DNA from: Mycobacterium paraseoulense
GTDB lineage: Bacteria > Actinomycetota > Actinomycetes > Mycobacteriales > Mycobacteriaceae
DNA: 64,000 nucleotides
Reading direction: 5' to 3'
NCBI RefSeq assembly: GCF_010731655.1
Contig: NZ_AP022619.1
Location: 4,154,001-4,218,000, forward strand
Shown here: positions 55,157 to 58,303 of the stretch, piece by piece
How the letters are laid out: every line of letters begins with the position of its first letter
Numbering within the stretch: position 1 is the stretch's first letter
Position numbers and translations under genes: made by a program
The notes under the pieces: generated by a model
Databases searched by the model: none
What the model was told of the DNA's origin: nothing
The model's input: the letters and a program-made list of their open reading frames with translations, nothing else

Positions 55157-56074
55157 GTGCGGCAGGGGAGTCAAGCCATTCGCGGATCGACGTCTGCGCC
55201 GACGGCCCGGGTGCTCGACGTTGTCGAGCTCCTGGCGCGGTCCGGAAATGCGCGGCTACGATTCTCCGACGTCGTGCGCGAACTCGGTCTGACCCAGGCG
55301 ACGGCGCATGCGATTCTGAAGACCTTGTGCGACCGGGGGTGGGCCAGCCGCGATCCGGTCACCAAAACGTTCACCCTGGGCCCGGCGCTGGCCGTCGTTG
55401 CGGCGCGAACGGACACCGTCCGGCCGCTCGCACACGCGGCCCGCTCCGCGGCGTTGCGGTTGTCCCGCGAAGTCGGCTACGCCTGCTCGGTGGTCGAGCG
55501 GTTCGGGGATTCGTTGGTGGTCACCGCGTTTGAGGGCGAGCCCGCCACCCAGCCGTCCGGAATACCCGGCGACCGCATCCCATACGCCCCGCCCTTCGGG
55601 GTCGCGCTCGCCGCCTGGGACGACGAGGATGAACAACGCGCGTGGATCCGCCGCGGCGCGGGCAACAACCCCGATCGCGTCCGGCGGCTCGAGCAGGTAT
55701 TGGCGCACACGCGTGAGCGCGGCTTCGACGTCGACTGGACGACGCCCGCGCTTGCCCAGGCCGTGCAGGTGGTCGGCACATTGGACAGCGCCGACATGCC
55801 GACGCCGGTGCGCTACATCATGGATCAATTGCTCGTCGAGTTCACCACCATCGGCTTCCTCTCCGACGACAACCCCGGCCGGCGCAAGCAACCCGTGGTG
55901 ACCATCGCCGCACCGGTTTTCGATGAGCGGCGGGTGGCCCTGATGGTGGCCGTGCACCCGCTGTGTCCGCTGTCCGCGCGGCAGATCCGGGTGATCGGGA
56001 AGCATTTGACCGACGAAACGACTGCGATCAGCGTGGGCCCGCGGCGGGCCGCGGCGGTCGATCGCGCCGTCTAG
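55157..56074 (+). CDS. IclR family regulator
   Basis: A 305-residue regulator. Winged-helix: TARVLDVVELLARSGNAR, FSDVVRELGLTQATAHAILKTL and WASRDPVTKTFTLGP. The C-terminal IclR ligand domain includes GDSLVVTAFEGEP and APPFGVALAAWDDEDE. The GTG start at 55157 has no strong ribosome site, so it may be leaderless. The probable target is the divergent ADH-SnoaL-SDR operon. Its TAG stop lies at the left edge of the inserted IS110 element; before insertion lysR probably followed 8 bp later. Confidence 0.88.
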   Translation: MRQGSQAIRGSTSAPTARVLDVVELLARSGNARLRFSDVVRELGLTQATAHAILKTLCDRGWASRDPVTKTFTLGPALAVVAARTDTVRPLAHAARSAALRLSREVGYACSVVERFGDSLVVTAFEGEPATQPSGIPGDRIPYAPPFGVALAAWDDEDEQRAWIRRGAGNNPDRVRRLEQVLAHTRERGFDVDWTTPALAQAVQVVGTLDSADMPTPVRYIMDQLLVEFTTIGFLSDDNPGRRKQPVVTIAAPVFDERRVALMVAVHPLCPLSARQIRVIGKHLTDETTAISVGPRRAAAVDRAV

Positions 56075-56129
56075 GCTCCGCTCAGTGTCAGGGTGAGGTT
56101 GCCGCTTGGTGCGGTGGTTGGATCCTGAT

Positions 56130-56273
56130 CACCTGGTGTTTGGCTCGTAGGCTCGTTGCCGCTTTCGGGTTGGCGTTCATGCGTTTTGTCGGCATCAGGT
56201 GTGAAGGACCGGCCGGCGTGACTTGATAGGAGCGTGGCATCGCCCCCACTGAGATGTGTCCGCCGACCGGCCC
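56130..56273 (+). ncRNA. candidate bridge RNA of the IS110 element
   Basis: The 5' non-coding region folds into two stem-loops. Stem 1: CACCTGGTG (56130-56138) pairs with CATCAGGTG (56193-56201), one G-U. Stem 2: 56206-56218 pairs with 56261-56273, 11 of 13 pairs. Each loop has TAGG in its 5' arm (56148 and 56227), the same four bases that flank the element. TAGGCTC (56148-56154) equals the left junction (56072-56078), ATAGGAG (56226-56232) equals the right junction (57361-57367), and CACTGAG (56247-56253) is complementary to 56081-56087. IS110 elements are known to encode guide RNAs in this position; the fold here is by eye. Confidence 0.55.
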
Positions 56274-56306
56274 AACCGTCACCTCACAGTGAAGGAGGCA
56301 ACCACC

Positions 56307-57359
56307 ATGGTTGTTGTTGGAGCCGATGTCCACAAGCGCACGCATACGTTTGTCGCCGTGGATCAGGTGGGCCGCAGAATCGGCGAGAAGGTCGTCGAGG
56401 CCACTACGGTAGGTCATCGCCAGGCGATCCGATGGGCTCGCACCCAGTTTGGTGTCGAGCTGGTGTGGGCGATTGAGGATTGCCGACATTTGTCGGCGCG
56501 ATTAGAGCGCGATTTGTTGTCCGCCGATCAGAAGGTGGTACGAGTCCCGTCGAAGTTGATGGCCCAGACCCGGGCCTCGGCTCGTACGCGGGGCAAGTCT
56601 GATCCGATTGACGCGTTGGCTGTCGCGCGGGCGTACCTGCGTGAGCCCGATCTTCCGGTGGCTTCCCACGATGAAGTGTCGCGGGAGTTGAAGCTGCTGG
56701 TGGATCGGCGTGAAGACCTTGTGGGGCAACGCACTTCGACGATCAACCGGTTGTTGTGGAGAGTGCACGAATTAGATCCTGGCCAGGCGCCGAAACCGGC
56801 GTCGCTGGATCTGGCCAAGCACCGCAGGACGCTCGGTGATTGGTTGGCCGCCCAGCCCGGTCTGGTGGCCGAGTTGGCCCGCGAGGAGTTGGCCGACATT
56901 ACCCGACTCACCGAGGCCATCAATGTTTTGGCGAAACGGATCGGCGAGCGTGTCCGCGCGATCGCTCCGGCGTTGCTTGCCATGCCCGGCTGCGGCGAGC
57001 TCACCGCCGCCAAGATCATCGGCGAAACCGCCGGGGTCGCCCGCTTCAAAAGCGAGGCGGCGTTCGCCCGGCACACAGGCGTGGCGCCTATCCCGGTGTG
57101 GTCAGGCAACACCGTCGGCCGCGTCCGGATGACCCGCACCGGCAACCGCCAACTCAACGCCGCTCTGCACCGCATCGCGGTCACCCAGATCCGTCTCGAC
57201 GGCCTCGGACAGGCCTACTACCGCAGCCGTCTGGCCGCCGGCGACTCCAGCACCGAGGCCCTGCGCTGCCTCAAACGCCGCCTCGCCAGAGTGGTCTTCC
57301 ATCACCTCCACACCGACCACAACATCCGAACAAAGCCTTGCCAACCGGCAGCGGCTTGA
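56307..57359 (+). CDS. IS110-family transposase (DEDD recombinase)
   Basis: A 350-residue recombinase. The N-terminal RuvC-like DEDD domain shows VVVGADVHKRTHTFVAV (first Asp), WAIEDCRHLS (Glu-Asp) and SDPIDALAVARAYL (final Asp pair). The C-terminal Tnp_20 domain has MPGCGELTAAKIIGET, FARHTGVAPIPVWSGNTVGRV and TGNRQLNAALHRIA with the serine region conserved in the family. ATG at 56307 follows AAGGAGG. The length and motifs look intact, so the element may still be active. It works with the RNA from the upstream non-coding region. Confidence 0.92.
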   Translation: MVVVGADVHKRTHTFVAVDQVGRRIGEKVVEATTVGHRQAIRWARTQFGVELVWAIEDCRHLSARLERDLLSADQKVVRVPSKLMAQTRASARTRGKSDPIDALAVARAYLREPDLPVASHDEVSRELKLLVDRREDLVGQRTSTINRLLWRVHELDPGQAPKPASLDLAKHRRTLGDWLAAQPGLVAELAREELADITRLTEAINVLAKRIGERVRAIAPALLAMPGCGELTAAKIIGETAGVARFKSEAAFARHTGVAPIPVWSGNTVGRVRMTRTGNRQLNAALHRIAVTQIRLDGLGQAYYRSRLAAGDSSTEALRCLKRRLARVVFHHLHTDHNIRTKPCQPAAA

Positions 57360-57373
57360 CATAGGAGAAACAT

Positions 57374-58303
57374 ATGGAATTGCGGCAGTTGCGCTATTTC
57401 GTGGCCGTCGCAGAGGAGTTGCACTTCGGCCGGGCCGCGCAACGCGTGCACATCTCCGGACCCGCGCTCTCGCAACAGATCATCGCGCTGGAGCGCGAAC
57501 TCGGCGCCGACTTGTTCGTGCGTGACCGGCGCAGCGTTCGGTTGACCGAAGCCGGACGGACCTTTCTTCCGGACGCGCGCCACATCGTGGCGCTGGCCGA
57601 CGACGCCAAGCGCCGGCTCGAGCGGGCGGCCGCGCGCAGCACGCCCGTGCGCCTGGGTTACGTCAGCTGGCTGCCCGAGGACATCACGACCCTGGTGGGG
57701 TCGGCGGCGGATTTGCGCCTCGACGAATGGGTGCTGCCCTCGCACGCGCAGGCCGACCGCGTGGCCGAGGGCACCCTCGACATCGCGCTGGCGTGGGTCA
57801 CCGCCGGCCAGGTCGAGGAAGGCGGCCTGACCGCGCACCTGCTGCGGACCGAGCCGCTGCGTGCGGTCCTTCCCGGTGCCAGTTCGACCGAACCCGTTGC
57901 AGCACAACACATCAGCGTGCTCGTCGACACCGACGAGTCGGCGTGGTCGTCGTGGAATCGGTACGCCACGGAATTCGCCGCCGCCGTCGGCGCCCGTGTG
58001 GTACGCATCGACGACGGCGGCATCACCGGGGATGCGTTCCACGCGCATGTGCGCCGGGTGGGCGGGGCCGTGCTCGCGTCACCGAAACGCCATACCGCGG
58101 CGCTCCCGCCCAGTCTGGGTCAGCGTCCCGTCGCCGACCCGATACCGCTGTGGACGTGGTCGCTGCTGCACCGCCGCGACGACGACCGCGCCAGCGTGCG
58201 CGGCGCCGTGGACGCGCTGCTGGCGATTGCGTGCACCCGCGGCTGGCCGACCCCGCCCGCCGGACGGTGGTGGGCCCCGGCGGACGACCCCCACCTGCGG
58301 TGA
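57374..58303 (+). CDS. LysR family regulator
   Basis: A 309-residue regulator. The winged-helix begins MELRQLRYFVAVAEELHFGRAAQRV with SGPALSQQIIALERELGADLFVRDRRSVRLTEAG. The periplasmic-binding-like sensing domain follows. AGGAG lies 6 nt before the ATG; it straddles the presumed IS junction. The IS110 element separates it from its original neighbour, so it may now be transcribed from the IS. The next gene, 92 bp on, is MmgE/PrpD, a possible target. Confidence 0.88.
   Translation: MELRQLRYFVAVAEELHFGRAAQRVHISGPALSQQIIALERELGADLFVRDRRSVRLTEAGRTFLPDARHIVALADDAKRRLERAAARSTPVRLGYVSWLPEDITTLVGSAADLRLDEWVLPSHAQADRVAEGTLDIALAWVTAGQVEEGGLTAHLLRTEPLRAVLPGASSTEPVAAQHISVLVDTDESAWSSWNRYATEFAAAVGARVVRIDDGGITGDAFHAHVRRVGGAVLASPKRHTAALPPSLGQRPVADPIPLWTWSLLHRRDDDRASVRGAVDALLAIACTRGWPTPPAGRWWAPADDPHLR

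Follow-up and report, generated by a model that had tools for sequence, protein, structure and literature searches.

Comparative sequence analysis identifies the stretch from about 56100 to 56276 of the window (the whole 64,000-nt stretch of DNA analysed here) as the bridge RNA of an IS110-group element, and the comparison of relatives shows that its target loop reads the host DNA to the left and to the right of the point of insertion. In those relatives left guides consist of TANNNT and about three more bases, and right guides pair with ATG or GTG together with the two bases ahead of it. Since one guide thus spells a -10 box and the other the complement of a start codon, the target has the form of a leaderless gene start, TANNNT-N6/7-RTG. 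As one explanation, a left-end bridge RNA aimed at leaderless starts, with accompanying roles for the host promoter, a Shine-Dalgarno sequence and a circular form, is in our view very probably correct. The features concerned are the following.

56072-56081, + strand: left target in host DNA, the -10 box TAGGCT (56072-56077) and four further bases, read by the left target guide
56082-57371, + strand: whole IS110-group element, 1290 bp without target duplication, delimited from the copies in its own genome and from filled versus empty sites
56082-56088, + strand: left end TCAGTGT; its first six bases, TCAGTG, form the right-donor sequence, to which the right donor guide pairs
56089-56094, + strand: CAGGGT, sequence-predicted -10 box of the circle promoter
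56100-56116, + strand: 5' hairpin of the bridge RNA, from the consensus structure of aligned left ends
56117-56121 with 56272-56276, + strand: outer helix of the bridge RNA, a conserved structure
56130-56201, + strand: target-binding stem and loop, the stem pairing 56130-56144 with 56188-56201
56148-56156, + strand: left target guide TAGGCTCGT, covarying with the left flank
56157-56163 with 56168-56175, + strand: upper stem of the target loop, with compensatory changes
56176-56182, + strand: right target guide TTCATGC, whose CATGC pairs with GCATG, two bases plus the start codon
56209-56270, + strand: donor-binding stem and loop, the stem pairing 56209-56222 with 56258-56270
56227-56232, + strand: left donor guide TAGGAG, identical to 57362-57367 of the right end
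56247-56253, + strand: right donor guide CACTGAG, complementary to (C)TCAGTG of the left end
56308-57359, + strand: transposase (DEDD recombinase), with ATG at 56308 and AAGGAGG ahead of it
57356-57371, + strand: right end TTGACA-TAGGAG-AAAC, combining the transposase stop codon, the predicted -35 box of the circle, the left-donor sequence and a Shine-Dalgarno-like AGGAG
57372-57376, + strand: right target in host DNA, AT plus ATG, the start of a LysR-type regulator gene

The ends of the element are fixed at 56082 and 57371 because filled sites could be compared with empty ones, and at both the dcd and the LysR-type gene sites this comparison finds the target bases unduplicated, as in the IS110 family. 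Three copies are present in the element's own genome, alike between the cuts at the resolution of the genome copy search and with flanks that are all different, reading TAGGCTCCGC, TAGGCTCGTC and TAGGCTCTGC up to the left cut and ATATG, GCGTG and GGATG from the right cut. The third copy (L003) is shorter by one base and its transposase frame appears broken. In the window the left target overlaps the stop codon of an upstream IclR-type gene, the downstream LysR-type gene carries Pfam HTH_1 from residue 3, and the natural target sequence of the element is TAGGCTCGTCGCGTG. The transposase, whose open reading frame as listed starts upstream of the ATG at GTG 56256, contains both domains of the IS110-family DEDD enzymes (PF01548, E 1.4e-23; PF02371, E 9.1e-22) and matches the solved structures of ISCro4 (E 3.5e-11) and IS621 (E 8.6e-9), while the non-coding ends, 226 bases on the left (56082-56307) versus 12 on the right (57360-57371), place the element in the IS110 rather than the IS1111 group. 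The left end TCAGTGT is invariant in 44 aligned elements, the rows of which had been chosen for that start, and the A and T of ANNNT in the adjoining CAGGGT box are likewise invariant in the 44 sequences. Joined in a circle, the two ends would create a predicted promoter, TTGACA (57356-57361), 17 bases, then CAGGGT. The AGGAG of the right end lies six bases ahead of the host start codon, i.e. at -11 to -7. At 56085-56096, the expected transcript start, the left end opens with a tiny frame, GTG TCA GGG TGA. The first-pass annotation had described TAGG as four bases present at both ends of the element, a description that has to be corrected: the left TAGG belongs to the promoter box in the host DNA and lies 10 bases before the cut, and the right TAGG is donor sequence inside the element. 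TAGG as a duplicated target or core was rejected, the empty sites showing no duplication.

Relatives were collected from Mycobacterium and other Actinobacteria (among them Gordonia, Nocardioides, Nakamurella, Knoellia and Pseudonocardia) by a genus search, with matches in 179 of 396 genomes, and a contig scan, from which the best 80 of 152 relatives were kept. Removal of 18 exact duplicates left 98 rows and removal of a further 22 without the left-end motif left 76, among which L087 and L101 each stand twice; as L043, L058 and L098 have no guide pair, 73 rows with 71 distinct left junctions were available for comparison of the loops with the DNA beside each copy.

In this set each of the two target guides varies in step with its own flank, so that covariation is seen on either side of the insertion site. 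The left guide, scored as the best of four registers against a control in which guides are shuffled among junctions, has a mean best match of 7.606/9 to its own flank, versus 5.557 when shuffled (0/5000 shuffles, 71 junctions); the match is at least 7 in 63 of the 71 and complete at all nine positions in 17. At the three inner letters of the -10 box, guide and flank agree at 0.932 versus 0.477 shuffled in the 64 boxed junctions, with all three identical in 52, and when one junction is taken for each distinct left guide the agreement is 0.951 versus 0.428 (n=34, 0/5000). For the right guide, tested on 56 junctions with L052 excluded, positions 1 and 2, which correspond to the two bases ahead of the start codon, give 0.696 versus 0.329 and 0.893 versus 0.702 shuffled, respectively (0/5000 for each), and there is no signal at positions 6 and 7, past the start codon, where 508 and 770 of 2000 shuffles do as well or better. 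The agreement is weak at left-guide position 9 (0.424 versus 0.282, 15/2000 shuffles) and at the first letter of the start codon (0.765 versus 0.656, 6/2000). None of these shuffles takes account of relatedness among the elements; in M. triplex, with 13 loci, three loci share one identical left end at three different promoters, which indicates that guide matches are not merely inherited with the site. The donor guides TAGGAG and CACTGAG match the element's own ends and are nearly invariant, so theirs is a match without covariation.

Three 7-nt matches had already been picked out in the first-pass annotation, namely TAGGCTC in the 5' arm of the first loop (56148-56154) with the left junction (56072-56078), ATAGGAG in the 5' arm of the second (56226-56232) with the right end (57361-57367), and CACTGAG (56247-56253) as the complement of 56081-56087. 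All three are present in the sequence, and its suggestion that they exceed chance and act as guides is borne out, because a chance 7-mer would not covary with flanks across relatives; the same covariation supports its reading of the region as a bridge RNA. What it had not recognised is the nature of the target, the start of a leaderless gene.

The evidence for that target comes from both flanks. A -10 box TANNNT occurs in the left flank of 64 of the 71 junctions, 9-12 bases before the cut, versus 10 of 2164 positions taken as controls from farther upstream in these flanks. On the right, a start codon stands exactly two bases after the end of the element at 68 of 74 distinct junctions (52 ATG, 16 GTG), counted only where GCTTGACATAGGAG is intact, so that more distant relatives are left out. 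The frames so opened run for at least 60 codons or to the edge of the sequence in 60 of the 68 cases and are shorter in eight, and a Pfam domain (e.g. HTH_1, DCD, Nitroreductase) was found in 19 of the 20 scanned from the 50 with at least 80 codons. The guides themselves carry the same signature: the distinct left guides of the promoter class read TANNNT in 33/33 while their other six positions vary, and 21/21 distinct right guides hold the complement of RTG (ATG or GTG). Of the seven junctions without TANNNT, three belong to elements with other guides, two (L034 and L071) show imperfect targets, and L112 and L061 are rearranged or unclear; the guides that lack TANNNT (L070, L075, L080) read no start codon either. 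Fourteen junctions not previously used all have the -10 box and the start codon (14/14), with a guide match of 8.07 versus 5.87 shuffled (0/5000). These came from 20 newly fetched stretches of the genus search, and a further 20 from a sister subfamily yielded 16 that were used. Set aside from the two groups were L179 and L200, with unreadable ends, the duplicates L173, L180, L181, L182 and L201, L178 (the L058 site again), L199, which has no left guide, and L202 (7/9 by eye).

Empty sites have the same layout, TANNNT-N6/7-RTG, as is found in leaderless genes. At dcd 28 of 30 fetched loci were readable, with TAGGCT in 25 and TACGCT in 3, followed after six bases by GTG or ATG, and the filled site is split two bases ahead of the start codon. 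For the LysR-type gene 20 loci were fetched and 16 printed, of which 14 (including L143-L146) consist of TANNNT, six or seven bases and ATG; the other two are the element's own filled site and L147, which has TAGGAGAAACG before the ATG. In L147 this TAGGAGAAACG abuts the LysR-type ATG and resembles a remnant of the right end, one base shorter than expected; the copy was possibly lost through recombination between two TAGG stretches. Two genomes (L002 and L076) have an element at one and the same dcd promoter site, with transposases about 92% identical.

The base ahead of the start codon is C in 56 of 68 cases. The base before the left cut, counted at 64 junctions, is C in 30, G in 29, A in 2 and T in 3, i.e. 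C or G in 59. In the parts of the M. tuberculosis start-site map drawn on here, 73% of primary starts have a TANNNT centred 7-12 bases upstream, there is no -35 motif, C is the commonest base at -1, and 26% of genes are leaderless (PMC3898074); the corresponding parts of a study of M. smegmatis give 24% leaderless genes and a Shine-Dalgarno window of -6 to -17 (PMC6448022). The promoter box, base preferences and Shine-Dalgarno window seen at the insertion sites agree with these mycobacterial maps, to the extent that the two sources were drawn on (PMC3898074, PMC6448022). As dcd is not named in the parts of the M. tuberculosis map consulted (PMC3898074), the leaderless state of dcd rests on sequence here. 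The element's own genome shows no enrichment of such sites, TAGGCTC-N5/6-RTG occurring 18 times versus 22 for the reversed control. Because the pattern is no commoner than its reversed control, the target is selective yet not specially abundant.

A sister subfamily with 70-75% identity reads something else. Eighteen new readable junctions from the 20 stretches include no -10 box and no start codon; left flanks are of GACAC or TTTTGYGTC type and right flanks mostly of GCTCG type (L183-L199, L202), and the right ends finish in CAAT, CTAT or CTAC, not AAAC. In the 16 used, left guides are flush with the cut and match at 8.44/9. Its motif TTTTGCGTCTGCTCGCG is absent from the element's own genome. 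Since the sister subfamily differs in both the left and the right flanks that it reads, the two guide arms have been retargeted together. More distant relatives (L102, L105, L106, L110, L111) end TTGACAGAGGAGC(T/A)AG followed by a GACA-like motif and seem to use yet another target.

These relatives bear on what we regard as the best-surviving, though unlikely, alternative, in which the guides are real, TANNNT is kept because the recombinase or the RNA requires guides that begin with TA, and promoter targeting is a side effect. The left donor guide TAGGAG does also begin with TA, and at most promoter sites the left target guide ends 1-3 bases from the cut, looser than the flush pairing of the sister subfamily, a slack that makes for a loose fit to promoters. 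However, multi-copy related elements exist with guides that lack TANNNT (L070, L075, L080, L183-L198), the T at guide position 6 is invariant in 33/33 yet absent from the donor guide, and a need for TA would not by itself predict that both arms change together.

A much less probable reading, that the element targets translation starts generally, as reported for IS900, and that the upstream TANNNT is incidental, would account for the start codons at 68 of 74 right junctions, and the IS900 motif, in the part of the report consulted, resembles on the other strand a Shine-Dalgarno sequence plus start codon (CATGNNNNNNTCTCCTT, PMC8141618); it does not account for a left guide that itself spells TANNNT with inner bases covarying with the flank, nor for the box in 64 of 71 left flanks versus 10 of 2164 control positions. 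Least credible of all is the view that the 5' region serves the transposase as an untranslated leader or attenuator and encodes no guide RNA. It does lie directly ahead of the transposase, and the lone sequence folds no better than shuffles, but the hypervariable bases of its loops follow the host DNA that flanks each copy.

The identification as a bridge RNA is consistent with the predicted structure. The consensus of 44 aligned left ends (of 58 prepared references) comprises a 5' hairpin, an outer helix, the target stem-loop and then the donor stem-loop, the order expected of a bridge RNA. The first-pass annotation had placed the candidate at 56130-56273, which takes in both stem-loops but misses the RNA start, as the 5' hairpin and the outer helix precede it. 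It had also looked to covariance among related elements, and this is found: both sides change in 7 of 50 pairs (44 sequences), 4 of 14 in the target stem, 2 of 7 in its upper stem and one in the donor stem, where 10 of 12 pairs never vary and which, being nearly invariant, gives little covariation evidence. Cells are paired in 99.6% versus 24.2-48.9% with one side slid, equalled by 0/500 shuffles, in an alignment that served for both structure prediction and pair counting. For this reason, and given the almost invariant donor stem, the case for a bridge RNA rests mainly on the guides. The folding energy of the lone sequence was rejected as evidence (z = -0.31, with 69 of 200 shuffles folding equally well or better), and Rfam gave no match within the window.

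The bridge RNA reading suggests how the element could live with its host. Inserting two bases before the start codon without duplication, it would leave the host -10 box intact beside its left end, from where a transcript would start at about 56084, so that one message from the host promoter could carry bridge RNA, transposase and host gene. The displaced gene would gain a leader, and the AGGAG of the conserved right end would keep it translated. In the circle, the joined ends would form TTGACA-N17-CAGGGT and express the RNA before the next insertion. The role of AGGAG in translation may be a by-product or secondary, because AGGAG doubles as donor sequence and persists in relatives aimed at sites other than start codons.

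A further proposition, to which we give an even chance, is that the guide RNA has evolved to read the grammar of leaderless genes, so as to land at a live promoter and repair translation, with a slack that follows promoter spacing. In this lineage one arm would read the -10 box and the other hold the complement of the start codon, GTG being readable through a G-U pair. The element would then always land where a live host promoter transcribes it, promoters would serve as landing pads, and the broken translation would be repaired by turning a leaderless gene into a leadered one with its own Shine-Dalgarno site. The 1-3 bases of slack between guide and cut would follow the natural spacing of promoters.

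Known bridge RNAs are read as programmable guide pairs with seemingly arbitrary targets. Here dozens of different guides retain three promoter letters and the start-codon complement as their remaining letters drift, a pattern suggestive of selection for a type of site and not for one particular sequence. Guides and targets together provide a naturally matched series in Actinobacteria, and indicate that in the IS110 family a recombinase can work with a gap of variable length between guide and cut. How a mobile element may sit immediately ahead of a gene and yet not silence it becomes open to test, and the insertion sites offer a simple genomic mark of leaderless gene starts.

The closest known systems share much of this organisation. 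As in the parts of the IS621 report used here (PMC11208160), a long left end encodes a 5' hairpin, then a target loop and a donor loop; left guides are identical, and right guides complementary, to the top strand; the target loop is variable and the donor loop conserved; and a promoter spans the joined ends, reported for IS621 and only predicted here. The transposases are also related. In IS621, unlike here, target and donor have a core dinucleotide in common and left guides pair through the core (PMC11208160, same parts), whereas CCGC/TCAGTG and AAAC/ATATG (slash at the cut) share at most C. Neither leaderless nor start codon appears in the main text of that paper (PMC11208160), and in that of the ISEc21 paper leaderless is absent and start codon occurs once (PMC11187229). 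In the portions of the latter drawn on, the ISEc21 seekRNA, also of the IS110 family, resembles the present RNA in its upstream non-coding position, duplication-free insertion, circle promoter (predicted here) and natural redirection in a relative, there ISMch6, but it is directed at part of the coding sequence of IS3-family genes (PMC11187229). A search of openly licensed published papers turned up no account of IS110 guides directed at leaderless promoters. IS900 of M. avium subsp. paratuberculosis is likewise a mycobacterial member of the IS110 family without target repeats, and is reported, in the sections consulted, to aim at translation initiation signals, its motif CATGNNNNNNTCTCCTT combining start codon and Shine-Dalgarno sequence in opposite orientation (PMC8141618). 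In the present element, unlike IS900, the -10 box and start codon have the same orientation and the guides are identified. The bridge RNA is thus known as a kind, and what its guides read, a promoter box and a start codon, is new.
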